In this document: positions 4,540-57,588 of the stretch, piece by piece
Position numbering within the stretch: the first letter of the stretch is position 1
Layout: each line of letters opens with the position of its first letter
Assembly: GCA_009773515.1 (NCBI GenBank)
Contig: WSXX01000003.1
Span: 124,001 to 188,000 of the forward strand
Length of the DNA stretch: 64,000 nucleotides
Source of the DNA: Bacteroidota bacterium
GTDB taxonomy: Bacteria > Bacteroidota > Bacteroidia > Bacteroidales > Lentimicrobiaceae
Reading direction: 5' to 3'
The notes under the pieces: generated by a model
What the model saw: the letters and a program-made list of their open reading frames with translations, nothing else
Told to the model about the DNA's origin: nothing
Database searches by the model: none
Made by a program: the position numbers and the translations under genes

Positions 4540-5127
4540 ATGTCAGAGTTTGTGGTCTCGTACGAACGAATACTTCTCGCGAAGCTAAAAAACGATGACC
4601 AGTCCGCATTTACCGTTATTTTTACAAAATACTATTCCGACCTGGTTCGGTTTTCGTTCGGGTTTACACATAATGCAGATATTTCTGAAGAAATTGTTCA
4701 GGAAGTATTCCTGAAATTCTGGGAGAACCGTTCTTCACTTGATATTCACACTTCGCTCAAATCCTTTCTGTTAAAAAATGTTCAGAATCGCAGCATTGAT
4801 AGCCTGCGCCATACGGACATCACTAATAAATATATCTCTTTGGTCCTCGGCCATGCTATCCTTTCGCAAAACGACACCGAGAATTATATTTTGTATTCCG
4901 AACTTCAGGCCAAACTCAATCATGCAATGGATAATATTCCAATCCAGTATGCTGAAGTTTTCCGGATGAGCCGCATGGAAATGCTTAAATATCACGAAAT
5001 TGCTGAAAAACTCGGAATATCTGTGCGTACAGTTGAGGCACGTATAAGTAAAGCATTAAGAATGTTAAAGGAAGAGCTTAAGGATTTCCTTATCCTGGGT
5101 ATGATTATCTATCAGCTGTTTCATTGA
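4540..5127 (+). CDS. ECF RNA polymerase sigma factor, FecI type
   Basis: This 195-residue protein has the two-domain ECF layout. Region 2 carries FTKYYSDLVRFSFGFTHN and the helix EEIVQEVFLKFWENR; region 4 has KYHEIAEKLGISVRTVEARI as the DNA-binding helix-turn-helix near residues 150-172. The next gene encodes a FecR-type anti-sigma factor and the one after that an STN-domain SusC transducer, so this is the sigma arm of a FecI-FecR-SusC trans-envelope circuit. It is expected to direct transcription of the SusC/SusD and downstream genes when ligand binds outside. The ATG at 4540 is the only good start and fits the -7 element at 4515. Confidence 0.93.
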   Translation: MSEFVVSYERILLAKLKNDDQSAFTVIFTKYYSDLVRFSFGFTHNADISEEIVQEVFLKFWENRSSLDIHTSLKSFLLKNVQNRSIDSLRHTDITNKYISLVLGHAILSQNDTENYILYSELQAKLNHAMDNIPIQYAEVFRMSRMEMLKYHEIAEKLGISVRTVEARISKALRMLKEELKDFLILGMIIYQLFH

Positions 5128-5231
5128 GAACTTCCCGGGTAAATAATCTGACTCAAAAAGCCTTATTTGCTGCCTTTTTGAAAAAATGTTGTTTTGTGGA
5201 TGTGGGTTTTAATTTTTAAAACGTCGTTATA

Positions 5232-6287
5232 ATGATTGATGAAAATATGAAAAATACAAATTCCGGCTGGGTTGATAATTTAATTGTAAGTTATCTTGGA
5301 GGTAAAGCTTCAAAGGATGAAATCCTGAAGCTGGAATTGTGGGTTCGCGAATCGGATGAAAATCAAAAATATTTCGCACAGTCAAAAAATATCTGGGAAG
5401 CTACTGCCGGATTTCCAATATCAACAGATAAAGCATTAGCCAAGGTTTTAAGCCAAATAAACGCTAAGCAGAAAGGCTTGACTTTATGGCAGGTAGCGCA
5501 AAGGCTAGCAGCAATACTGTTTATACCCTTGCTCATTTCCATGCTGTGGCTTTATTCAGGGAACGAATTTAGACATTCAAACTCAAACATTACATTCAAT
5601 AAGGTAGTAGCTGCATTTGGAACATTTTCCGAACTGGAACTTCCTGATGGATCAAAAGTGTGGTTAAATGCTGGCAGCTCCCTGATGTATCCCGATAAAT
5701 TCAGCAGCGATAACCGAATCGTTCACCTGGTCGGAGAAGCCTACTTCGAAGTTCATTCCGACGAAAGTACCCCCTTTTTAGTCAACACACCCTATTTTAC
5801 TGTAAAAGCAACAGGAACCAAATTTAATGTTCGGGCCGAAAAAGATTTTCGCACACCTTCAGTAACTTTAATTGAAGGTAAAGTGGCTGTACAAAAAACT
5901 TGTTCAGATAATAACGGCAGACTGATAGCCCGGTTGCAACCTCGCCAGCACATGACTTACGATACCTTAAGCGGTGATTTTAATATTCAAACCGAAGATC
6001 CCTACAAACATTTTGCATGGAAAGATGGCAAACTCGTTTTCCGGAACGACAACATGAGTGAAGTTGCCAGAAGGATCAGCCTTCAATACAACGTGGATAT
6101 AGAAATCAGAGGAGACGAAATAAAAAAATATCGTTACAGAGCGACATTCGAGAATGAACCTTTGAGCGAATTATTGAGACTCTTGAAAATTTCGTCCCCG
6201 ATTGACTATACCGAAGTCAAGCCAGCAGCATTGCCTGATGGTACATTTTCCCGAAGAAAAATCATAATTTTTTCCATAGTTAATTGA
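5232..6287 (+). CDS. FecR-family anti-sigma factor
   Basis: This 351-residue protein has an N-terminal cytoplasmic segment of about 85 residues. A single membrane span follows (ILFIPLLISMLWLY, near 90-105). The periplasmic FecR domain comes next, with the signatures LPDGSKVWLNAGS, GEAYFEV and TGTKFNVRA. The C-terminus is a DUF4974/STN-like region of about residues 262-340. FecR proteins hold the ECF factor at the membrane and release it after contact with the N-terminal domain of the TonB-dependent receptor. It lies 104 bases after the sigma gene and before the STN-containing SusC gene, which supports that pairing. ATG at 5232 is chosen; an internal ATG six codons later is possible. Confidence 0.92.
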   Translation: MIDENMKNTNSGWVDNLIVSYLGGKASKDEILKLELWVRESDENQKYFAQSKNIWEATAGFPISTDKALAKVLSQINAKQKGLTLWQVAQRLAAILFIPLLISMLWLYSGNEFRHSNSNITFNKVVAAFGTFSELELPDGSKVWLNAGSSLMYPDKFSSDNRIVHLVGEAYFEVHSDESTPFLVNTPYFTVKATGTKFNVRAEKDFRTPSVTLIEGKVAVQKTCSDNNGRLIARLQPRQHMTYDTLSGDFNIQTEDPYKHFAWKDGKLVFRNDNMSEVARRISLQYNVDIEIRGDEIKKYRYRATFENEPLSELLRLLKISSPIDYTEVKPAALPDGTFSRRKIIIFSIVN

Positions 6288-6513
6288 TTTTGAAAAGTCT
6301 GATGCCTATGTGCTGTCTTAAATAACAATTATAAACCGGGTATTTTTCTGTTGTTGGATACCTGTTTTATTGTGTCAGAAACAAGGCTTTAATTCAAGTC
6401 ACTTTTCTAAAATCAATATTAATAGTCATTGACAAAATTGAAGTTATCTGAAAATGATAATTTCAGTTAACGGGATTTTTGTTTTCTTTTTTTACCTTAA
6501 AACTAACCAAAAT

Positions 6514-9500
6514 ATGAGACTATTTTTACTAACAGGCCTGTTCTTCCTTTTCATTTTAATGCCTGTACGGCTTGATGCACAGTCAACAAAAATAACATTG
6601 AATCTGGTTAATGTCCCGTTGAATGATGTGCTGAATGAGATCGAGAAAAAGAGTGATTTCACATTCCTAGTCAACGAGGAGGTTGTTGATGTTACAAGGA
6701 AGGTAGATGCCGTTTTTGTCAACACGGCTATAAAAGATATTCTTGACCAGCTATTCAAGGGCGAGAAAATCAAATATGTAACAAGCGACCGCCAGATTAT
6801 TATAACTCCAACCAAAAATAAAGGCGGGGATTTTCAGTCAAAAAAAGTAACCGGTAGAGTAACTGATGAAAAATCCGGTGAAACATTAATAGGTGTAACT
6901 GTGCAGATTAAGGGTACTTCCATGGGTACAACCACGTCGGTTGATGGAACCTATTCTATTGATCTACCTGCATCTGACGCCATACTTGTATTTTCCTATG
7001 TAGGCTATGAACCTAAAGAAATATCAGCCAGGGATGTTCAGGTAATAAACGTTGCAATGCATCAGGTTGCAACCGAACTCGAAAGTGTTGTTGTAACCGC
7101 CTTAGGTATAAAGCGAGAGGAAAAAGCCCTGGGATATGCAGTTCAGAAAGTTGACGGCAAGGGTTTACAAACAGTGAGATCTGTTGATGTAGGTACCTCA
7201 CTAACAGGTAAAGTAGCTGGTTTATCGGTATTAAACAGTACTGAGTTTGGTGCAGCACCTGAGCTTTATATTCGTGGAGAAAAACCGCTTTTGGTAATTG
7301 ATGGAGTTCCATACGGCAATATGACTCTGCGGGATGTTCCTCCCGATGATATTGAAAGCCTCAGTATTCTTAAAGGAGCAACAGCTTCTGCACTCTATGG
7401 TTATCGCGGGGCAAGCGGTGCAATTATGATTACTACTAAAAAGGGAAGTGTTAACAAAGGTATTTCGGTATCAGTTAACAGTAGCTCAATGTACGCGGCT
7501 GGATATCTGGCTATTCCCGAATCACAGTCAACTTACGGACGTGTTGTTAACACAGCTACCAACACGGCTGTTACCAATGGCGATGGTGCCTGGGGCCCTC
7601 CTTTGGAAGGTCAGGAAGTTATCCAATGGGATCCGATTAGCAGAACAATGAAGCCCATGCCATGGCTACCCGTAGGTAAAGATAATTTTCAGAATTTCCT
7701 TGAACCCGGATATGTCCTTAATAATAACGTCAATATTATACAGCAAGGCGAGTCAGGAAGTTTTCGTGCTTCGGCCAGTTGGGTAAAAAACAAAGGGCAA
7801 TATCCAAATTCCATGTTCGACAAATTCGCTTATAACATTGGCGGAGATATAAAACTGCGCAACTTTACATTATCATCAAGCATTTCTTACAACAAGCAAA
7901 CATCGCCTAATTTTGGTTTTAGCGGTTACACGGGATACGACCCAATGTATTCTATGCTAATATGGTCATCGCCCGATTGGAATGTACTCGATTATAAGAA
8001 TTATTGGGTAGTACCTAATGAAGTTCAGAACACCGGTTATACCGATACCAACAACAACCCTTATTTTGACAGGAACGAAAGGATCCACAGCTTAAACAAA
8101 GATATTTTTAATGGGTCACTTTCTTTGAGTTATAGCCTTGCTTCGTGGCTAAAAGCAACCCTGCGTTCAGGATTTGACACTTATAGCAACCGTCAGGTGA
8201 TACGGATTTCAAAAGGTTCACTGGTAAGTGCAGGATCTTCCACAGTACTTGAAAATGGTAGCCAGGTTTGGGGCGAAAGCAAATTGGGTTCTTACAATCT
8301 GGGTCTCGGAAGAGGTTATAGTTTTAACAACGATTTTTTACTTTCTGCCGACAAGACTTTCGAAAAGTTCACCATTGATGGATTTGTTGGTGGAACAATT
8401 TATTACCGCCAGGATGAAGGAACAGATTCGAGAACTCAGGGCGGTCTTTCTATTCCGGGATTTTACTCTCTGAAAGCTTCGGTTCTACCCGCGTTTGTAG
8501 TCTCAAATATTTACAAGCAACAGGTTAACAGTTTGTATGGGCGGTTGGCTTTTTCATGGAACCGTATGGCTTATGTGGAAGGTACTCTCCGAAACGACTG
8601 GAGTTCTACTTTATCTGAAGCAACCCGATCCTATCTATATCCATCTGTATCAGGAAGTTTTATCGTTTCTGAATTATTACAAAAAGCGCAATGGCTATCA
8701 CTTTGGAAATTACGTGGCTCCTGGACATCATCAAAAACACCTGCCGGGATTTATGACATTAATCAGGTTTTCAATATTACCAACAATGCATGGACAAATT
8801 TGACTTCTGCCTCATTGCCAGCTACTATATATAGCAGCAATGTATTTCCAGAGTCTGCTTCTACCTGGGAAATAGGTACCGCAGTTAATGTTTATAATAA
8901 CAGGGCGTCGATTGATATTTCTTACTATAATAAACGCATGTATGATTTTCTTCGGGAAGCGGATATTACTCCTGCAACCGGATATTATTACAGTTATGTT
9001 AATATCGATGAGGAAATTACCCGTAAGGGTGTTGAAGTTACTGCAAATGTAACACCAGTGAAGACGAGTAACTGGAAATGGGATATTTCAGTAAACTGGT
9101 CGAAATATGCACGGTATTACACCAAATTAGATTCTACCTACTCTGAGGACAAACCCTGGATACAGGTTGGAGAAAGAGCCGATCCTTATACCCTGTATGA
9201 TTTTCAGCGTGATCCCGAAGGCAATATTATCCACAAAAATGGGGTACCCCTTTATTCAAATTATGCATCAAAGTTTGGAAATTATGATCCAGACTGGATA
9301 TGGGGCGTAAATTCCACCCTCAGGTATAAGAACTGGAACTTCTTTGTTTCTCTTGATGGCCGGGTTGGAGGTTTAGCGCAAACTACCACCGAAATGTATA
9401 TGTGGCGCTCCGGTTCACATCCAAACTCAGTTACCCCCGAACGATACCTCGATGCTACCGTTCCCGGATCAAAAAACTATACCGGAGAAGGAGTAAAAGT

Positions 9501-20839: not shown

Positions 20840-20910
20840 TAATTATCCCTAAGGAGCGCATTTTGTTCATATAAAAGTAAGGCTAAGCAAAAAAAGACAG
20901 CAATAAATAA

Positions 20911-20938
20911 ACGACCCGGAAGTTTAAGTCCGGGCCGT
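20911..20938. terminator. Convergent hairpin terminator between the glucan locus and the PKD operon
   Basis: ACGACCCGGA, an 8-base loop and TCCGGGCCGT form a GC-rich stem with one mismatch, flanked by A/T-rich sequence on both sides. It separates genes that converge on this spot, so it may act in both directions. A second small stem (CTTCCC / GGGAAG) lies at 20958-20974. Confidence 0.65.
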
Positions 20939-20974
20939 TTCTGATCAGGGAATGAGCTTCCCTTTTCGGGGAAG

Positions 20975-23900
20975 TTACTTTATAAACTTGCGTTGTAATG
21001 GCTGATATCCTTCAGCGCTGATGCGCAGGAAGTAAGCACCTTTTACCAGATTACCGGCATTGAGTGAGATGCGGGTGCTTCCATTGGAAACAGAGAAAAT
21101 TTCACTCACGATAACCCTGCCCTGAAGGTCAATAATATCAGCAACAACCTTACCGCTGACTGAAGCATTCAGCTCAAGATAGAAGGTTTCGCCAACCGGG
21201 TTTGGATAGATTTTTCCTGCATCTAAAACAGGCTGGTTCTGATCGTTTCGACCCAACGCACTGATTGCGGTTGCTGATACCTCAAAATTCACAATGGCAC
21301 TTGAAAACTCATCTGATAAAATCACAACCATAACCTGCGTGTGTTTGCCAACCATTTCGGCATGAACAGTATATTCGCCGAAAGGCAGGTTATTGAATTC
21401 AAATGAACCATCGCTGTGTGAGAAAGTGTAAGCTATCGGAAGTCCGGTATTGTTAAAAAGTACGATCTCAACATTTTCAGCTGGCATTCCGCCCGATTTA
21501 AAGTTTCCGCTCCAGTTGATGGCACCTGTAATGCTGGCTGTGCCTTGTCCCCAATTCATAGCAGAAATCAGGTTAATCGGATACCAACCGAGGGTATCAG
21601 CTGTAGTAACAATGGTTGCGCCCTGCCAGGTGAGTGAACTTACGTAGTAAGTTGGAAGATAATCGATGAAAGCAGGATCATCTGGAGTCAGCATTGCATA
21701 GATGTAGTAAGACCCGGCTGGAACGCCTCCAAAGTTATAAGTACCATCTGAATCAATTTCTGTTTCTGCATAATAGAAATTATCAGCTCCAAGCAGCCAC
21801 ACCTGTCCGGCTTCTGCCAATGCATTTCCAGCTGTTACATTACCTGAAAGACTGAAATCCCCTCCGGTACTTCCGGCAAAAACAATCATACAGTAAGTGC
21901 TTTGACATTCAGTGCCATTCTCAATGGTCAGGCAAACATTATATATGCCTGCTTCGGAATAAGTGTGTAACGGGTTTGGATCGTCAGATGAGGTACCATC
22001 GCCAAAATCCCATACAGCACTTGTGTATTCAGGGAAAGAGGTGTTTACAAACTGATAGGTAAGCAAAGTCTGAACTGAATCAACCGGATATGCAAAAAAT
22101 GACGCCTGACATTCCGGCTGAATAAGATCAACCCATATTTCCTGACAGGTTTGATCCCAGCAGTTGTTCAGACTATCGCTGATCATCAGGCAAGCCATAT
22201 AAATACCGGGTTCTGCGTAAGTGTGTGTTGGATTGACTTCTGATGACTGATTTCCATCGCCGAAATCCCAAAACCGGTATGCATGATTGCCCATAGAAAG
22301 GTCCTCAAAATACCATGTGTAACCATCAGGATCTGAATAAGCAGACATTACGGCTTTGCATTCCGACCCTCCACCACCAGGGAAGATTGTCTGACAGCTT
22401 ACAAAAATACAAGAGTCGGCAGGATTTAACGAAACAGTTGTAAGACAAACATTGTAAATCAAGCCCATCCCACCCTGGAAAGTATGTGTAACCTGCTGAC
22501 CGGTAGCAGTTGTTCCGTCACCAAAATCCCACAGGTATTCAGCAGCTCCGCCATTGAGCATAAAGCCGGTAAACTGATATGTTGAGCCATCGTTTGTAAT
22601 GGCTTCGAAATAATTTTCGCAGGGCGACGGAATGTAGGTAAATACCTCCTGACAGAATGTGTAAGTGCAGGCTGTGCCATCAGGTCCTATACCGGTAGTG
22701 GTAAGACAAACGGTGTATATTTGGTTGGGATTGGCAAATGAATGAGATACCACCTGACCTGTAGCAGTAGTTCCATCGCCAAAATCCCAGGTCCAGGAGT
22801 CAATCATATTGTTCATAGCCCATCCTTCGAATGTATAGCTGTTACTGCTTGAATCGGGATAATACCAGAACCAGCTTTCACAGGGAGATGGAATATGATT
22901 GTAAAAATCCTGACAGGAAGTATAAGTGCATGGATCGCCTTCCGGACTTGTGCCGGTTGTGGTGAGACAAACAGTATAAATTTCGTTGGGATTTGCAAAA
23001 GTATGATTTACAATCTGACCGATGGCGGTTGTGCCATCACCAAAATCCCAGGTCCAGGTTTCCGGATTTCCGCCAGGCGACCATCCTTCAAAGGTGTAAG
23101 CTGCTCCTGTGGAATCGGAGTAGTACCAGAATGAGTTCTCACAGGGGTCAGGGGTGTAGAAAAATACTTCCTGACAGGAAATTGAGGTACAGGCTGTTCC
23201 ATCAGGACCAATACCGGTGGTGGTAAGGCAAACCAGATAAAGGCTGTCGTTATTGGCAAACTGGTGCGAAACCGTTTGACCGGTAGCTGTTGTTCCATCA
23301 CCAAAGTCCCAGATGTAGGAATCTGGTTCAATATTTATTCCCCAGCCTTCAAATGTAAATCCACCGCCAGTTGAATCAGGGTAATACCAGAAATAATTAT
23401 CGCATCCTCCGGGGATAACAGAACCTGCTTCAACCGGCAAACAGAAACTGCTGTAGCATGAGCTGTCGCTGCTGCTGATGTAGAGGCAAGCCATATAAAA
23501 ACCGCTTTCGGAATATGTGTGTACCGGGTTTTGGTCTGTTGAAGTTGCTCCATCACCAAAGTCCCAGAACCAACTGTCGATGATTGCCCCGGGAGCAGCA
23601 AAACTTTCATCAGTAAAACTAAGTGTAAGCAAATCGTTTGAAGCATGAATATAACGGAAAGAGGCCGAACAGCCTTGTCCCGAAGTACCACAAATACTGA
23701 AATCAAGCACGGTTTGTTGTGCACCCGGCAGGATAACCGCACACATAGCAATCATTACTCCATTACAGTCGTTTGTTGAAACTGTTATAAAAGCGGGAGC
23801 AGTGCCTTGTGAATAGGGAATATTATCGGTATAAAAACCCGATTCATCAGTAAAAACTTCGTTGAAGTATCCCGGAAAGTTAAGGCTGTCAGATGAAATA

Positions 23901-24046
23901 TACATTGCCTGACCGATCACCGGTTCGCCGGTTTGCTGGTTTGTTACATGCCCCGAGAGGACAACATATGGCTGCTGGGCAAAGGAATGTGCGATTCCTG
24001 CAAGAAATAGGAGCAGCAAAAGTGTGAATTTTTTAGTGCTTTTCAT
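20975..24046 (-). CDS. Secreted seven-PKD-domain protein with T9SS sorting domain
   Basis: The start is taken at ATG 24046 (MKSTKKFTLLLLLFLAGIA signal peptide) rather than the upstream 24064; the product has 1023 residues. A carboxypeptidase-regulatory-like domain is followed by seven PKD domains, each marked by WDFGDG. Two further CNA-B-like domains (SLSGNVTAG and SITGAINWSG) come next. The final T9SS type A domain holds KIYPNPVGETFYLEL. Each PKD has a recurring four-cysteine pattern (C at entry, VCLT or ACL, then C-x3-C), suggesting disulphides. It should be a large surface or extracellular protein. No enzymatic motif is seen. It is the last gene of the sigma-barrel-PKD-PKD operon. Confidence 0.85.
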   Translation of the reverse strand: MKSTKKFTLLLLLFLAGIAHSFAQQPYVVLSGHVTNQQTGEPVIGQAMYISSDSLNFPGYFNEVFTDESGFYTDNIPYSQGTAPAFITVSTNDCNGVMIAMCAVILPGAQQTVLDFSICGTSGQGCSASFRYIHASNDLLTLSFTDESFAAPGAIIDSWFWDFGDGATSTDQNPVHTYSESGFYMACLYISSSDSSCYSSFCLPVEAGSVIPGGCDNYFWYYPDSTGGGFTFEGWGINIEPDSYIWDFGDGTTATGQTVSHQFANNDSLYLVCLTTTGIGPDGTACTSISCQEVFFYTPDPCENSFWYYSDSTGAAYTFEGWSPGGNPETWTWDFGDGTTAIGQIVNHTFANPNEIYTVCLTTTGTSPEGDPCTYTSCQDFYNHIPSPCESWFWYYPDSSSNSYTFEGWAMNNMIDSWTWDFGDGTTATGQVVSHSFANPNQIYTVCLTTTGIGPDGTACTYTFCQEVFTYIPSPCENYFEAITNDGSTYQFTGFMLNGGAAEYLWDFGDGTTATGQQVTHTFQGGMGLIYNVCLTTVSLNPADSCIFVSCQTIFPGGGGSECKAVMSAYSDPDGYTWYFEDLSMGNHAYRFWDFGDGNQSSEVNPTHTYAEPGIYMACLMISDSLNNCWDQTCQEIWVDLIQPECQASFFAYPVDSVQTLLTYQFVNTSFPEYTSAVWDFGDGTSSDDPNPLHTYSEAGIYNVCLTIENGTECQSTYCMIVFAGSTGGDFSLSGNVTAGNALAEAGQVWLLGADNFYYAETEIDSDGTYNFGGVPAGSYYIYAMLTPDDPAFIDYLPTYYVSSLTWQGATIVTTADTLGWYPINLISAMNWGQGTASITGAINWSGNFKSGGMPAENVEIVLFNNTGLPIAYTFSHSDGSFEFNNLPFGEYTVHAEMVGKHTQVMVVILSDEFSSAIVNFEVSATAISALGRNDQNQPVLDAGKIYPNPVGETFYLELNASVSGKVVADIIDLQGRVIVSEIFSVSNGSTRISLNAGNLVKGAYFLRISAEGYQPLQRKFIK
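22390..23405 (-). repeat. Tandem PKD repeat array (four near-identical units)
   Basis: PKD units two to five share long runs such as DFGDGTTATGQ, YTFEGW and VCLTTTG. At the DNA level the phrases around gtagcagttgttccatcacc and ccaaaatccca recur about every 250 bases. The neighbouring PKD units and the paralogue at 24125 are much more diverged, so this block expanded recently. Confidence 0.8.
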
Positions 24047-24124
24047 GTTGTAAAGGATTGCCATTTGGTTTAGTTAAGATTGGCTTATTTAAAAGACCCT
24101 TCATTTTTTGAAAGGTTGCCCGGT

Positions 24125-26395
24125 TTAAGGAATTTTAATGAACTTTTTTGTGTCAAGGATTACACCTTGGTCCGATTTAAACTGAATCATATAAAACCCC
24201 GGAACAAAATCCGTAAGGTTGATGATGATTCTCTTGCTGCCTGCCGGAATTAAATTTTCGCGGATGTTAAGCGGAGTTCCGGTTGGTGAAATTACTTCGA
24301 AAAATATGCTGGTATTGTTTTGATCGCGAAGTTCAAGCGTTAAAAAATCACTTACAGGATTCGGATAAACAGATATCTCATTTAAGTTCCTCATCTCTGT
24401 TTCTTCCGTTCCGAAAATGCCTGACGCTGACACTTCCAGATCAAGACCAAAAGTTTGGTTCTGGAAATTGGTAAGACTTACCTGAATAGTATTGCTATAC
24501 AGACCGGCTATTTCGGCTTTGATAGAATATGTTTCATTCGGAAGATTGCTGAAACTGAAGTATCCGGAAGCATCGGTATAATCGTAGGCAATGACTACTC
24601 CCTGATGAAAAAGGAAAATAATCTTTTCACCCGGATACGATAAAGAACCATCAATACTTACTAGATTTCCTGAAATAACACCTGTCCCACTTTGGGGTAA
24701 AACAGTCATTCCCTGCATATAAACATTCGCATCAAAGACATCTGATCCAGATAGAGAAACCGCCTGAGCGCTCTGCCATGAATGCGTTGAACCGGTGTAT
24801 GCAGGAATGTATGACATATAAGAAGGAGAGCCATCAAGCAGTTCAGCATGAACAACATAGTCTCCCTGCATTACATCGAGAAAGAAATAATATCCGTATT
24901 CGGAAAAATCACCGGCAGCAACTTCCGAGAGCTTGTTGCCCGATTTTTTAAACAGCCTGACATGTGCCACATCGTTTACAGAATCAGGATTGTTGATCGG
25001 GAAGTTTCCAGCAAATATCTGACCGCCCAAATTGCTGTATTCAGGCGTGGTTATCGTCTGGCAAAAAGTATCAGAGCAATAACCGCCGCTGCCTGTTCCG
25101 CTTACAGTAAGACACACGTTGTAGGTGCCGCTTTCAGCAAAGGTGTATTCAGGATTTTGAATATAGGAAATTGCGCCATCGCCAAAATCCCAATACCAGT
25201 TGGTGATGTTTACACCTTCAGATTCATCGGTAAACCAATAGTGGTTTTTTATTCCGGGGATTGAGTCCACCTGAAACGCGAAAGCAGACTGACAGGCAGT
25301 AACAGTATCTCCAACCGTAATATCAAGACACAAAACATCCTGACATTGAAACATATTGCTGATAACTGCCAGGCAAACATGATAAATTCCGGCCTGCTCC
25401 CAGGTATGTACAGGATTGGTTTCATAAGAAAAAGGAGTGCCGTCGCCAAAATCCCATATCACCTGATCGATCCAACCTTCAGAGAGGTTGGTAAAGGCAA
25501 TTGTATTTCCTTCAACATGCTCATAAGTGTAATTGGCTATACATTCCTGTGGGAGCCCGATAGAAATAAGCTCACAGCGACTTGACTGGCAATTGGTTGC
25601 GCTGTCATAAATTGAAAGACAAACCATATAAACCCCGGGATACTGCCAGGTGTGCTCAGGGTTGGGAAGCTGAGAAGTGTTCCCATCACCGAAATCCCAG
25701 AAGAATAATGAAGGACTTCCTGTGGAAATGTTGGTAAATGAAGCAGTTAAATCCTGAATTTCCCAGATAAAGTAAGCTTCACATTCCTCCTGATTAATTC
25801 CTGCCCATACATCAGCACAAGATATACTGTTGCATCCGATAGCGGAATCAACCATTGTCAGGCAAACGTAGTAAATGCCTGGCTGGGCATATTCATGGCT
25901 GGGCTCAAATTCGTTTGATGTCTGTCCGTCACCAAAATCCCACATCCAAAAAGCAGTATTATTTACCGGTAAACTCAGGTTTTCGAAAGAGACAACCGGG
26001 CTTGAAGAAGGTTGGTTTGTGTATTCAAAAGAAGCTTTGCAGTTGCTGAACTGGGTACATATCTCAAAATCCGCCTGATACAGATTCTGGTTAACGACCG
26101 GAAAAGACAGCACATGATGATTGTTTTCACAATCTGTCGTGAAAACATATAACACCGATAATGAATCAGCAGGTGGAATAGGATAATCAGTGTAGTAGTA
26201 ACCGTTTTCATCGGTGTTAACCATCACAGTGATTGATCCGTTTATCAAACCTATTTCAACCTGATGATCTGGTACCGGAATTCCGGTTTCAATCGCAGTT
26301 ATATGCCCTTCTATATAGACAATCTGATTTTGTGCAAACACCGCATGCATTGTGGTGAACAGCAAGAGGAATATGATGAATAATCGGAGTTTCAT
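24125..26395 (-). CDS. Secreted four-PKD-domain protein with T9SS sorting domain
   Basis: This 756-residue paralogue of the downstream gene has a signal peptide ending near VFAQN. A regulatory-like Ig domain comes first, then four PKD domains (WDFGDG four times) with the same cysteine pattern. Two CNA-B-like domains follow, then a T9SS type A domain (ISVYPNPVSDFLTLEL). It begins 13 bases after the barrel gene and ends 78 bases before the next PKD gene start, so it is cotranscribed. The pair probably acts as a surface or matrix structure whose expression is set by the operon's sigma factor. Function beyond that is unknown. Confidence 0.85.
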   Translation of the reverse strand: MKLRLFIIFLLLFTTMHAVFAQNQIVYIEGHITAIETGIPVPDHQVEIGLINGSITVMVNTDENGYYYTDYPIPPADSLSVLYVFTTDCENNHHVLSFPVVNQNLYQADFEICTQFSNCKASFEYTNQPSSSPVVSFENLSLPVNNTAFWMWDFGDGQTSNEFEPSHEYAQPGIYYVCLTMVDSAIGCNSISCADVWAGINQEECEAYFIWEIQDLTASFTNISTGSPSLFFWDFGDGNTSQLPNPEHTWQYPGVYMVCLSIYDSATNCQSSRCELISIGLPQECIANYTYEHVEGNTIAFTNLSEGWIDQVIWDFGDGTPFSYETNPVHTWEQAGIYHVCLAVISNMFQCQDVLCLDITVGDTVTACQSAFAFQVDSIPGIKNHYWFTDESEGVNITNWYWDFGDGAISYIQNPEYTFAESGTYNVCLTVSGTGSGGYCSDTFCQTITTPEYSNLGGQIFAGNFPINNPDSVNDVAHVRLFKKSGNKLSEVAAGDFSEYGYYFFLDVMQGDYVVHAELLDGSPSYMSYIPAYTGSTHSWQSAQAVSLSGSDVFDANVYMQGMTVLPQSGTGVISGNLVSIDGSLSYPGEKIIFLFHQGVVIAYDYTDASGYFSFSNLPNETYSIKAEIAGLYSNTIQVSLTNFQNQTFGLDLEVSASGIFGTEETEMRNLNEISVYPNPVSDFLTLELRDQNNTSIFFEVISPTGTPLNIRENLIPAGSKRIIINLTDFVPGFYMIQFKSDQGVILDTKKFIKIP

Positions 26396-26408: not shown

Positions 26409-27764
26409 TTAGAATCTGTAAAGTATTCCGGTTTTTATACCAAAGCTTTGAGGTTTTGTACGGGTATTCTGATACACTGGTCGCAGATAGCTTTTGTAGG
26501 TTGGTTCGGCAAGCAATGTAAATCTGCGGGAAAGGTGCAAACCAACACCAAGAGAGGCTGCAATCTGCCAGTTGGCTGATACCCTGTCAGGGCTGAGATC
26601 GTTGATAGATTGAAGGCTGGCATTTTCCTGACTAAAGATTGCCTGCTGTTCATCGGAACCTATCATCAGCGAAAACACCGGCCCGGCTTTCAGGCTGATG
26701 GTGAGAAAACGGTTGGCATAAATCCGGTAACCGGCCATCAGGGGAATCTGCAGGTAGGTGTAACTATTTGCGGTTTTCGTTTGAACATTATGCCCGATTG
26801 AATCATAAACTCCTTCAATTTCTGTGTTGAAAATTATCCTTCCGGGATTTTGCAGATCAGGACTGAAAGAAACTACTTTATTGTAGAATCCAATGCTGTC
26901 GAAAGAGCTGTAATTTATGTCGAACTTACCATTATCATCGCTTTTGGCAAAAGCAATTCCGGTTTCAAACTCCCAGGGTCCACTGAAGGTACCAAGGCTT
27001 ATTCCTGCTGCCCGGCTTTGTTTGCGATGATTGTTGTTGTAATATATCATATCCCACGAAGCATAAACCCCTCCGATAATCGGAATTGAAGTGCGTTTCG
27101 GCGATATAGGATTTCCTGAGTTTTTGTAACGCAGATTAAAAGCCGGGAAATTCTCCGCGACAATCTCAGCGCTGGTGCGGGAGGAAAGCCAGTTGGTAAA
27201 ATCGGTGCGTAAATCCAGCAGTTCTGACTTAACAACTATCAGCTTTTCTGTGCTGTTGTCAGAATTAATATTTGCAGATGTCTCAGCGCTGAATTTTTGA
27301 GTTTCTTCTTCGGTTTCGTGACTGTCAGAGCCTTGTGGGATATTTTCATTTTTGCCGGATTTGTCTGTCCGTGAAATATTCTGACCTGTATTTTCGGTAA
27401 CAATTCTGTTTGAAGATGATTTTTCAGGATTAACAGCAGATAAATTAACATCCAAACCCTGCTGCTTTTCTGTGGCAGAGATGGAGGTTTCTGTAGATTG
27501 TTGCATTGGAGATGATGAATCTGCTTTTTCAGTTTCAGGGTTGATGCGACTTGCAAAAAACCACAATAAAGCAATGGTTGTTAGAAGTAAACCGCCAAAA
27601 CCAGCAAGCATCCATCTTCTGCCGGTTGGTATTGAAACCGGCGTAGAACCTGAAGCAGGAAGCGCTGAATCGACCCGCTCCCACACCCCGGGCGGCGGAG
27701 CAGGCCTTAAATCGTTCAGGCTCTCCCTGAAAAGTTCATCAATATTGTTTCGTTCGTCTTTCAT
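26409..27764 (-). CDS. Inner-membrane-anchored outer-membrane beta-barrel protein, possible sigma regulator
   Basis: The 451-residue protein has an unusual layout. A charged cytoplasmic-type N-terminus of about 50 residues (DELFRESLNDL, then PAPPPGVWERVDSAL) is followed by a single hydrophobic span (about 51-71) with no signal-peptidase site. A low-complexity Ser/Thr/Glu/Lys-rich linker of about 150 residues comes next. The C-terminal 225 residues look like a PorT-type beta-barrel with alternating strands and a terminal aromatic (GIKTGILYRF). Its ATG overlaps the sigma-factor stop (ATGA), so the two are translationally coupled, as anti-sigma factors usually are. The inference is that the N-terminus binds the sigma factor while the barrel senses the surface. 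No zinc-finger or FecR motif is present. Confidence 0.7.
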   Translation of the reverse strand: MKDERNNIDELFRESLNDLRPAPPPGVWERVDSALPASGSTPVSIPTGRRWMLAGFGGLLLTTIALLWFFASRINPETEKADSSSPMQQSTETSISATEKQQGLDVNLSAVNPEKSSSNRIVTENTGQNISRTDKSGKNENIPQGSDSHETEEETQKFSAETSANINSDNSTEKLIVVKSELLDLRTDFTNWLSSRTSAEIVAENFPAFNLRYKNSGNPISPKRTSIPIIGGVYASWDMIYYNNNHRKQSRAAGISLGTFSGPWEFETGIAFAKSDDNGKFDINYSSFDSIGFYNKVVSFSPDLQNPGRIIFNTEIEGVYDSIGHNVQTKTANSYTYLQIPLMAGYRIYANRFLTISLKAGPVFSLMIGSDEQQAIFSQENASLQSINDLSPDRVSANWQIAASLGVGLHLSRRFTLLAEPTYKSYLRPVYQNTRTKPQSFGIKTGILYRF

Positions 27765-28327
27765 GACTGTACGCTTATATTTTTTGTGGCAAGTTCTGCC
27801 TCTATCATTTGTCTGAGTTTTTTGCGGGCTTTCATCAGTTGAGTTTTTGAAGTATTATTGCTGATGCCCAGCATTTCTGAAATTTGCTGATGGCTCAGAT
27901 TTTCAAAAACATACATATTGAAAACCAGGCGATAGCCATCGGGTAATGTCTGTATCATCAGCAATAATTTTTCTTTGGGGATTGCTGAAGCTGAAAAAGT
28001 TTCTGCATCGTCAACCGGGTCGGGCTCAGGAGGTTCTGCTGAAGAGTTTATAAACAGATATTTCAGGTTGTCGCGTCTGAAATTTATAGCCTGATTCACC
28101 ACAAGCCTTTTTAGCCAGCCTTCCAAAGAACCTTTAAAACCAAAAGAACTCAACTTGGCAAAAATTCTGATAAATGCTTCCTGCAAAAGATCCTCTGCTT
28201 CGGCACGGTTGCGGGTATAGCGAAGACAAATACCAAAGAGTACCCCCGAAAATCGTTGGTACAATTCGTATTGTGCCTGCTTATTTTCTGATAAACAGTC
28301 CTTTACCAATTGCTTTTCGCTACGCAT
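27761..28327 (-). CDS. ECF RNA polymerase sigma factor
   Basis: The 188-residue protein has a region 2 with YQRFSGVLFGICLRYTRNRA and the helix EDLLQEAFIRIFAKL. Region 4 has LSHQQISEMLGISNNTSKTQL as its recognition helix near residues 146-168. It heads an operon with the anchored barrel protein and two PKD/T9SS proteins. The stop overlaps the next start by four bases. A consensus -7 element precedes it. It is distinct from the FecI-type factor at 4540: the partner here is neither FecR nor a zinc-finger protein. Confidence 0.93.
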   Translation of the reverse strand: MRSEKQLVKDCLSENKQAQYELYQRFSGVLFGICLRYTRNRAEAEDLLQEAFIRIFAKLSSFGFKGSLEGWLKRLVVNQAINFRRDNLKYLFINSSAEPPEPDPVDDAETFSASAIPKEKLLLMIQTLPDGYRLVFNMYVFENLSHQQISEMLGISNNTSKTQLMKARKKLRQMIEAELATKNISVQS

Positions 28328-28352
28328 TCATTCCCTTGTACTATTGCAGACA

Positions 28353-28360
28353 CAAAAATA
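28353..28360 (-). promoter_or_regulatory. Bacteroidota -7 element of the sigma/PKD operon
   Basis: On the minus strand this reads TATTTTTG, an exact TAnnTTTG match 25 bases before the sigma start. The -33 region is not convincing. Confidence 0.55.
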
Positions 28361-28460
28361 GGGAATGGGTTGCCCGGATGGGTAAAATATTTCCGGGTAG
28401 TTGATTTATTTCTTCGCGTAGGTTTTTATAACATCAGAAACAATACTCAAAGATTTAAAA

Positions 28461-56244: not shown

Positions 56245-56292
56245 AATCAATAAAAATGCTGTGGATTGAATAATACTTATACCTTGAAAATT

Positions 56293-57588
56293 ATGAAAAC
56301 CATAAACAAACAATCTCTAAGGCAAATTACAGTAGTTTTATTACAATTTGTATTCCTGTGTGCATATGGACAGGAAAACTTTCTTCCCGGATACATTATT
56401 GACCTGAAAGGAGATACAACAAAGGGATTTATTGATTATCGCAACTGGGATAAAAACCCAAAGGATGTAGTCTTCAGAAATGATACTGATGGTATCAAAT
56501 CCACTTACAAACCCTTAGATATCAGTGAATTTAGAGTTCTGGATGAATTATACGAAAGTGCCATTGTTGAGATTGAAACCAGTCCTGTTTTGACAGCCAA
56601 GCTGAAACCTGATCCTGAACTCTATTTTGCCATTGATACGACATTTTTGCAGACGGTAATCCGGGGAACGAAAAGCCTCTATTACCTTAAAGACAGAACA
56701 GGAAAATCCCACTTCTATACAAAGGATTCATTGTTCAGATTACTGATTTATAAGAGATACTTTAAGGTGGTAGAGGGGAAAAACGGTGTGGCTGAGAACA
56801 GAACTTTTCTGGGACAGTTAATAAATTATCTGGAGGATTGCCCGGACATCCAAAAGAAAATTAAAAATACCGGATATAATAGACAAAGTCTCGAGAAACT
56901 GTTTAGCGATTGTTACAATATCAAGAACATGCCCGTGAGTAATGGCTTTGAAAAGACAGAAATTAATTTTCAGAATAAAACTGAGAAAGTTAAGCTGGAA
57001 GTTGGGTTACATGCCGGTATGACCTCCACCTCTATTTCATTCAGGAGTGAAAAGCGAGAGTATCTTTCCGAAGCGGAGTTCAAACCCTCATTGAATTTTA
57101 CCTATGGGATGTATTTTGATTTCATCCTTCCCAGACAACAAGGACGATGGTCTGTTTGTAATGAACTCACTTTTACAAATTATCTCACAACAGGCGAATA
57201 TCTTGATTTTGAATCTGATGAAAAATACACGATAAATTATACTACCATGGGATTTTCATACCTGAATTTAAACAGCATGATTCGTTTTAAATACCCGGTG
57301 AAAAAGATCCGCATCTTCGCAAATGCAGGTCTTTCAAACGGAGTACTACTTAAAGAAACAAACATTCGGAAAAGGGAGATCAAATACTATACTGAGGAAT
57401 TAACCGAATACAGTCATGCAGTCAAAGGAGTCAGGGAAATGGAGCAGCGCTTCAATTTGGGTTTAGGCGCCCAATTAAAAAAAATATCATTCGAGTTCAG
57501 GTATGAACTGGGAAATGGAATGGCTCAGGCTATACAACTAACTTCAACAACTAAGCGGTTTTATTTTATATTTGGATACAGGTTTTAA
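56293..57588 (+). CDS. Hypothetical outer-membrane beta-barrel protein
   Basis: ATG 56293 (MKTINKQSLRQITVVLLQFV signal peptide, cleavage near AYGQE) is preferred over the upstream TTG; the protein has 431 residues. The first half begins LPGYIIDLKGDTTKGFIDYR and NWDKNPKDVVF, a pattern I associate with a Bacteroidota-specific family of unknown function. A helical segment with paired cysteines near residues 195 and 220 follows. The C-terminal half is a PorT-like barrel ending in KRFYFIFGYRF. It stands alone after the IS remnant. Confidence 0.75.
   Translation: MKTINKQSLRQITVVLLQFVFLCAYGQENFLPGYIIDLKGDTTKGFIDYRNWDKNPKDVVFRNDTDGIKSTYKPLDISEFRVLDELYESAIVEIETSPVLTAKLKPDPELYFAIDTTFLQTVIRGTKSLYYLKDRTGKSHFYTKDSLFRLLIYKRYFKVVEGKNGVAENRTFLGQLINYLEDCPDIQKKIKNTGYNRQSLEKLFSDCYNIKNMPVSNGFEKTEINFQNKTEKVKLEVGLHAGMTSTSISFRSEKREYLSEAEFKPSLNFTYGMYFDFILPRQQGRWSVCNELTFTNYLTTGEYLDFESDEKYTINYTTMGFSYLNLNSMIRFKYPVKKIRIFANAGLSNGVLLKETNIRKREIKYYTEELTEYSHAVKGVREMEQRFNLGLGAQLKKISFEFRYELGNGMAQAIQLTSTTKRFYFIFGYRF

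Follow-up and report, generated by a model that had tools for sequence, protein, structure and literature searches.

A candidate Dma/Reo-type anti-sigma factor beside predicted type IX-secreted PKD proteins in a Lentimicrobiaceae genome

In FecI/FecR and SusC-linked systems, an extracytoplasmic function (ECF) sigma factor is paired with an inner-membrane anti-sigma factor that reads an outer-membrane event. Here we analyse a 64,000-nt stretch of DNA from a Bacteroidota bacterium (Bacteroidales; Lentimicrobiaceae; assembly GCA_009773515.1, contig WSXX01000003.1, positions 124,001-188,000; hereafter the window), in which an ECF sigma gene overlaps the gene of a 451-residue partner and is followed by two genes for PKD proteins with sorting domains of the type IX secretion system (T9SS). 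The locus differs from FecI/FecR and SusC-linked systems in that a predicted barrel sits within the putative anti-sigma chain itself, and its sigma factor scores below the TIGR02985 cut-off (90.4 bits against 126.4). Closer relatives have been described. In Dma2 of Bacteroides thetaiotaomicron, a helix and a long disordered tether connect an N-terminal anti-sigma domain to a C-terminal barrel, and dma2 lies beside the gene of an ECF21 sigma factor within an operon of three genes; deletion of dma2 raises das2 and bt_1555-1557, and hypervesiculation requires das2 (PMC13088901). An "unusual" sigma/anti-sigma pair of Phocaeicola vulgatus includes an anti-sigma factor that is predicted to cross the periplasm and to carry a barrel at its end (PMC9308784), and in the EcfO-Reo pair, Reo is described as spanning "all five bacterial compartments" and as probably sensing outer-membrane stress (PMC13114119). 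Loss of a Reo-type anti-sigma factor turns on a regulon that includes surface NigD lipoproteins, the nigD genes being published EcfO-Reo targets (PMC9308784, PMC13114119). What the Dma/Reo proteins sense is still posed as a question in the accessible text of PMC13088901 and PMC13114119.

The window locus shares with Dma1-Das1 and Dma2-Das2, as these are described, an anti-sigma N-terminus, one helix, a disordered tether and a barrel (all four predicted here), an adjacent ECF sigma factor and downstream operon genes; with EcfO-Reo of Bacteroides fragilis and P. vulgatus, it shares the combination of a sigma factor with a (here predicted) envelope-spanning barrel anti-sigma factor, and surface proteins among the known or, here, predicted targets. 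A previous sequence-only reading of this DNA had proposed an undescribed signalling system. That proposal falls, because Dma2 and Reo share the architecture in print, as does Dma1. The neighbours are different. Dma2, likened here by its published description, is accompanied by DUF4943 (BT_1557), DUF4858 (BT_1556) and reductase-like BT_1555 proteins, and the surface proteins in the described EcfO-Reo regulon are NigD lipoproteins, whereas the branch to which the window belongs has T9SS PKD proteins. We found no report of this branch or of its promoter in the accessible text of the open-licence literature, and the promoter elements were not found in the accessible parts of the Flavobacterium psychrophilum transcriptome and B. 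thetaiotaomicron regulon papers (PMC9723704, PMC12596196). Thus the architecture is already published, and the branch with T9SS neighbours and its promoter looks new; the two downstream genes and the shared promoter, the less expected part of the locus, were missed by the sequence-only reading. Taking these lines together, we consider it likely that the partner is a Dma/Reo-type anti-sigma factor that controls its own operon and T9SS surface proteins.

The sigma gene (27761-28327, on the minus strand, like all parts of the locus described below) encodes 188 residues with Pfam regions 2 and 4 (Sigma70_r2, 8e-15; Sigma70_r4_2, 4e-16). By the open-reading-frame calls, its stop codon overlaps the start codon of the partner gene (26409-27764) by four nucleotides, ATGA, at 27761-27764; coordinates, strands and the four bases are as previously reported. 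Pfam, hydropathy, composition and the barrel model likewise agree with the anatomy proposed for the partner, namely a cytoplasmic-type N-terminus, an uncleaved span, a flexible linker and a barrel-like C-terminus. The N-terminus of about 48 residues (residues 1-48, 27621-27764) is rich in charge and contains a P...W..I-type motif, whose conservation marks it as a predicted cytoplasmic anti-sigma segment. Residues 49-74 (27543-27620) form the predicted single inner-membrane span, with a best 19-residue hydropathy of 1.98 and a net charge of +2 in the 12 residues before it and -1 in the 15 after. A check of the sequence for a signal peptidase site found no A-x-A after the span, and judged by hydropathy, charge and this missing site, the span is probably uncleaved. 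The predicted periplasmic linker that follows (residues 75-221, 27102-27542) is rich in S, N, E and T; 41% of its 147 residues are S, T, N or Q, and little of it is conserved in the alignment.

The remaining residues 222-451 (26409-27101 with the stop codon) end in F, and PF13568 (OMP_b-brl_2) covers residues 252-417 (E 7.7e-7; 29.8 bits, cut-off 27). AlphaFold2 applied to this region alone, with three sequences, returned ten or eleven strands at a predicted local distance difference test (pLDDT) score of 66.7 and a predicted template modelling score of 0.62. The best fold matches of this model are outer-membrane barrels, among them a designed 10-strand transmembrane barrel (Z 16.3, root-mean-square deviation (rmsd) 1.9 over 137 residues) and the OpcA adhesin barrel (Z 14.8, rmsd 3.6, 183 residues), so that, with moderate confidence, the C-terminus is an outer-membrane barrel, as had been suggested. 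A PDB sequence search with the partner gave 0 matches at E up to 1, and an NCBIfam search gave nothing above cut-off. No FecR-like domain or TonB-dependent receptor was matched by Pfam in the partner, the first downstream protein (E up to 1) or the second (E up to 0.001). We therefore reject a TonB/FecR-type system, there being no such domain in these three genes scanned beside sigma, in line with the earlier view that the locus works without a separate TonB-dependent receptor.

The pairing is not confined to the window. A partner profile, derived from 21 aligned relatives, was searched within the phylum only. The 118 loci read are the window and 117 others, of which 100 (L094-L193) are best matches from 80 order and 20 phylum genomes picked with their neighbours unseen, and 17 (L048-L064) were chosen after sigma adjacency had already been seen for most of them. 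A sigma gene lies directly upstream on the same strand in 122 of the 126 partner-profile matches of these loci (104 of 108 in the 100 blind-picked loci), and again in 37 of 40 further loci; this search for the two-gene pairing, which had been called for, places it far beyond chance. The overlap is exactly 4 nt in 45 of the 122 pairs, and 82 overlap to some extent. The anatomy recurs among the 122 sigma-paired partners: the W motif is present by a loose pattern in 110, the N-terminal span has a hydropathy of 1.6 or more in 117 (a single span of this kind being found in 103), and the side before the span is more positive than the side after it in 112. The C-terminal residue is F or Y in 97; of 707 other genes, 67 have F, Y or W at this position. 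The 76 partners that are linked to PKD or C-terminal sorting-domain (CTD) proteins or carry the A motif defined below give the N-terminal consensus m.....nID.lfr..l.g....Ps..vW..i...l. In the partners of L035, L038, L041 and L043, two copies of the W motif apparently precede the span, which would fit a duplicated anti-sigma segment.

Sigma distances correlate with N-terminal distances of the partner (r 0.55; no permutation above 0.12), and in tandem loci, sigma and N-terminus pick the same match in 26 of 28 comparisons. Two sigma/barrel pairs per stretch are found in L096, L105, L106, L108, L109, L113, L123 and L227, the second pair of L227 being cut. Of 20 loci picked by nigD, 9 contain a sigma/partner pair, called Reo-type only by its nigD neighbour, whose partner matches the profile at 3e-16 to 3e-38. 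These matches and the shared architecture place the window protein with the Dma/Reo family.

Thirteen base pairs after the partner gene, the first downstream gene (24125-26395, 756 residues), assigned by Pfam and synteny, encodes a signal peptide-like start, four PKD stretches, CarboxypepD_reg and Por_Secre_tail, the T9SS sorting domain. The second (20975-24064, 1029 residues) has a similar architecture, with seven PKD_4 stretches, CarboxypepD_reg and Por_Secre_tail, and a homologue of it is present in nine same-genus loci (two are cut by the stretch end and one lies in two reading frames). The sorting domain of both genes matches PF18962, and SprA of the T9SS translocon, the sole T9SS component looked for, is encoded in the same genome (2700 bits). 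The two products thus have the sorting domain of T9SS cargo in a genome that encodes SprA, and would be exported by this route. The link to such genes is a property of the closest relatives. Among the 57 closest partners (E up to 1e-60), 55 are followed within 250 bp by a same-strand gene, and 52 of these 55 genes encode PKD and/or sorting-domain proteins. The count is 44 of 47 when eight same-genus orthologues are left out, and 36 of 38 for loci retrieved once the link was known (L094 on); it had first come to notice in L048-L064 and was counted afterwards. Among the more distant partners (n=69), 12 of 43 downstream genes are of this kind, and as background, of the 468 other genes in the same loci that have 200 codons or more, 27 have PKD and 38 a sorting domain. 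Pfam run on 52 downstream proteins preselected as PKD/CTD found the sorting domain in all 52 and PKD in 48. Of the two A-motif pairs scored as non-linked, one, L053, does have the PKD gene, which lies 303 bp away, past a run of N.

A shared predicted promoter motif connects the sigma gene to the PKD genes. A putative ECF-type promoter, GGCAACC-N16-GTCTG, lies at 28347-28374, 19 bases from the sigma start codon. The same element stands 5' of sigma in 10 of 10 same-genus loci, in which the surrounding DNA has diverged; its distance from the start codon is 18-19 bases in the eight same-genus loci examined. With a spacer of 15-17 bases, the GTCTG form has its only match in the genome at this promoter (reversed control, 0), and the shorter GTCT form, our strict pattern, has five sites in the 5.03-Mb genome (reversed control, two): the sigma promoter, a site at the second PKD gene and three within open frames of 504, 187 and 416 codons. 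The only two outside longer open frames are therefore both in this locus. The second site (GGCAACC-N16-GTCT, 24094-24120, found by pattern scan) starts 56 bp before the second PKD gene and is a predicted promoter. It is strict in the window and five same-genus loci, strict in a sixth if the start is read later, and has its first base changed in the remaining three. Ten same-genus genomes together contain 34 sites of the GTCTG form against 17 of its reverse, ten of the 34 being sigma promoters. In the window and 108 non-orthologous loci, the 150 bp that precede the gene contain a strict site for 7 of the 113 paired sigmas, 6 of the 89 T9SS/PKD genes and 1 of the 748 other genes, and two control patterns occur upstream of none of the 950. 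The lone gene of another kind (L167:5624-6547), directly downstream of a pair, encodes a lipoprotein-like product of 307 residues for which Pfam gave no match. Outside the genus group, 71 of 112 pairs have GCAAC upstream of sigma, against a mean of 12.7 and a maximum of 21 in shuffles.

Many more distant pairs carry a different element upstream of sigma, CGCAAC...CATC (B motif), and the GGCAACC...GTCT type (A motif) and B divide the pairs by their neighbours. In the discovery set, PKD/CTD-linked pairs comprise 20 with A, 0 with B and 33 with neither, and non-linked pairs 1, 30 and 29, respectively; shuffles give at most 2 A and 1 B. With the patterns unchanged, the linked pairs of new loci comprise 4 A, 0 B and 17 neither, and the non-linked pairs 0, 9 and 6, with one pair at a stretch end set aside. 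All 13 classifiable pairs, of 37, thus agree with the split (Fisher 0.0014). On a tree of 159 sigmas, A versus B needs one change, and the window falls in a 54-row group (Shimodaira-Hasegawa approximate likelihood ratio test (SH-aLRT) 97) in which 51 rows are PKD/CTD-linked. The nine sigmas linked to nigD group in a separate clade (SH-aLRT 98) and have neither A nor B motif, so that the sigma trees separate A, B and nigD lineages. A PKD/CTD-linked group apart from that of the window on the sigma tree (L231, L234, L237, L239, L241, L244, L247, L249 and L253) also has neither motif.

In the sister branch, whose pairs mostly have the B element, the downstream neighbour is often of another kind. 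An SLT domain was found by Pfam in nine of ten scanned downstream proteins of non-PKD pairs, and sister-branch pairs with a transglycosylase (SLT) downstream are those of L095, L126, L127, L144, L150, L156, L158, L162 and L165. The tenth scanned protein, which lacks SLT, belongs to a second sigma/barrel pair of the window's own genome (L057, G000:C11:37000-50000, 4643-7868). This pair has LVIVD repeats and no PKD downstream, and its upstream element reads TGCAACC...CATC.

As a plausible mechanism, modelled on the published relatives, the partner N-terminus would hold sigma in the cytoplasm, with the helix in the inner membrane, the linker across the periplasm and the barrel in the outer membrane. 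Upon a change there, sigma would be freed and would transcribe its own operon from GGCAACC-N16-GTCTG, including the first T9SS-exported PKD protein, and the second PKD gene from a separate copy of the promoter. A single chain that crosses both membranes and serves as sensor and anti-sigma factor at once agrees with the sequence evidence and with the published relatives. We infer that the PKD proteins are the main sigma targets; with a predicted regulon this small, the circuit would be nearly self-contained.

Several observations weigh against this interpretation. Most linked pairs have no recognised element: neither A nor B is seen in 33 of 53 PKD/CTD-linked pairs of the discovery set and 17 of 21 of the hold-out, or 50 of 82 when same-genus pairs are included. 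The promoter patterns were written after the discovery set had been seen, and in one relative (G010), seven strict sites equal the seven of the reversed control, two of the strict sites being the sigma and second-PKD ones. Of the GTCTG-form sites in the ten same-genus genomes that are not sigma promoters, most of those examined lie inside genes and are taken as chance, so that single matches in one relative mean little. PKD linkage needs eight changes on the sigma tree, the 54-row group is not among the starred sets when nine nigD rows are added (168-row tree), and a lytic transglycosylase lies directly downstream in 18 of 39 B-motif pairs, frequent and not universal. As for sampling, the profile alignment includes the partners of most of L048-L064 and those of L094 and L095, the 1e-60 split was set at tabulation after the link had been noticed in L048-L064, and the 40 hold-out loci are other genes, yet 36 are from genomes already used. 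The search scored 4-5 candidates per genome, so that its genome counts (46 of 392 phylum genomes with a match at E up to 1e-12; 162 of 295 order genomes matched) are lower bounds. Sigma tracks the barrel (r 0.68) more closely than the N-terminus with which it would interact (r 0.55), and because sigma and partner share one operon, the correlated distances may reflect shared descent alone. Finally, the barrel model was built from only three sequences, soluble beta-barrels also align to it with lower scores (2a13, Z 11.7, 142 residues), and the full-length AlphaFold2 model of the partner, from three sequences as well, was too poor (pLDDT 32.7) and was discarded.

Within the favoured explanation, a Dma/Reo-type anti-sigma factor controlling its operon and T9SS surface proteins, two readings of the signal have to be weighed. 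In the first, to which we give about an even chance, the anti-sigma mechanism is kept, sigma release answers to general damage of the outer membrane, and the PKD proteins serve solely as output, such as a protective or adhesive coat. Reo, which is thought to sense outer-membrane stress and has surface NigD lipoproteins in its regulon (PMC9308784, PMC13114119), provides the precedent, and a promoter before the PKD genes is what outputs would have. The covariation between barrel and PKD protein is harder to accommodate. Corrected for sigma, barrel distances follow PKD-protein distances (partial r 0.46, reached in 0 of 500 permutations, n=71), although a correction for sigma only is a weak control, whereas the corresponding value for the N-terminus is -0.02.

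The second reading turns this covariation, together with the dedicated gene order, into an argument that the barrel has the PKD proteins as its ligands or caps, such that their presence, anchoring or pulling sets the state of the anti-sigma factor and the operon reports on T9SS display and feeds back. We regard this as possible but rather unlikely. T9SS cargo is known on outer-membrane barrels in PorP-PG1035 and SprF-SprB (PMC9143113), and in Porphyromonas gingivalis, PorA, a surface protein with a CTD, stands upstream of a sigma pathway (PMC7712824). However, the barrel precedents concern type B CTD cargo on 14-strand PorP-like barrels, and the window combines Por_Secre_tail with a smaller PF13568 barrel. 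PorXY-SigP with PorA resembles the locus in placing a CTD surface protein upstream of an ECF sigma factor, but does so by a two-component route with the T9SS machinery as sigma regulon, and no barrel anti-sigma factor, which the window would have, is named in the accessible text of PMC7712824. The covariation is suggestive of contact but could come from better-resolved distances; for the sorting domain alone, it is weak (partial r 0.17, a value reached by 3 of 500 permutations). A more extended version, which we put forward as a speculation that is rather unlikely to hold in full, makes the barrel anti-sigma factor a receptor dedicated to the T9SS-exported PKD proteins of its own locus, through which the cytoplasm would feel export, anchoring or pulling and adjust supply, sister branches having swapped the partner for a transglycosylase in the wall or NigD on the surface.

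Two readings outside the favoured explanation fare badly. That the span is a late signal peptide, with the mature barrel released and the N-terminal part acting alone or degraded, draws on an A-x-A in or just after the span in 22 of 122 partners and is very improbable for the window protein, which lacks this site, has a 48-residue charged N-terminus with the conserved W motif before the span, and has published relatives with a transmembrane helix and a cytoplasmic domain (PMC9308784, PMC13088901). Just as improbable is an ordinary porin or adhesin merely sharing the operon of sigma, given the 122 of 126 pairing, the conserved cytoplasmic motif and relatives that restrain their sigma by genetics (PMC9308784, PMC13088901), even though PF13568 is common, with 15 matches in the genome and no sigma directly upstream of 12 of the 14 examined.

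With its constant neighbour gene, recognisable promoter and very small predicted regulon, this large branch offers a concrete candidate for both the output and the ligand of such proteins, with the sister branch, which has another promoter and the transglycosylase, as a natural comparison. If the anti-sigma interpretation holds, it would add a single-protein route for regulating T9SS surface proteins.

The other PF13568 gene of the window (56266-57588, plus strand) was considered as a second pair and rejected, since it has a signal-peptide-type hydrophobic N-terminus and no sigma directly upstream. A terminator-like hairpin of 12 pairs, 7 of them G-C, lies 3' of the second PKD gene (20909-20940, minus strand; a consensus match only), in a region where nine such hairpins were found against 7.8 expected. 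Another hairpin of terminator type (24096-24116, minus strand) coincides with part of the promoter predicted for the second PKD gene and may be due to chance.

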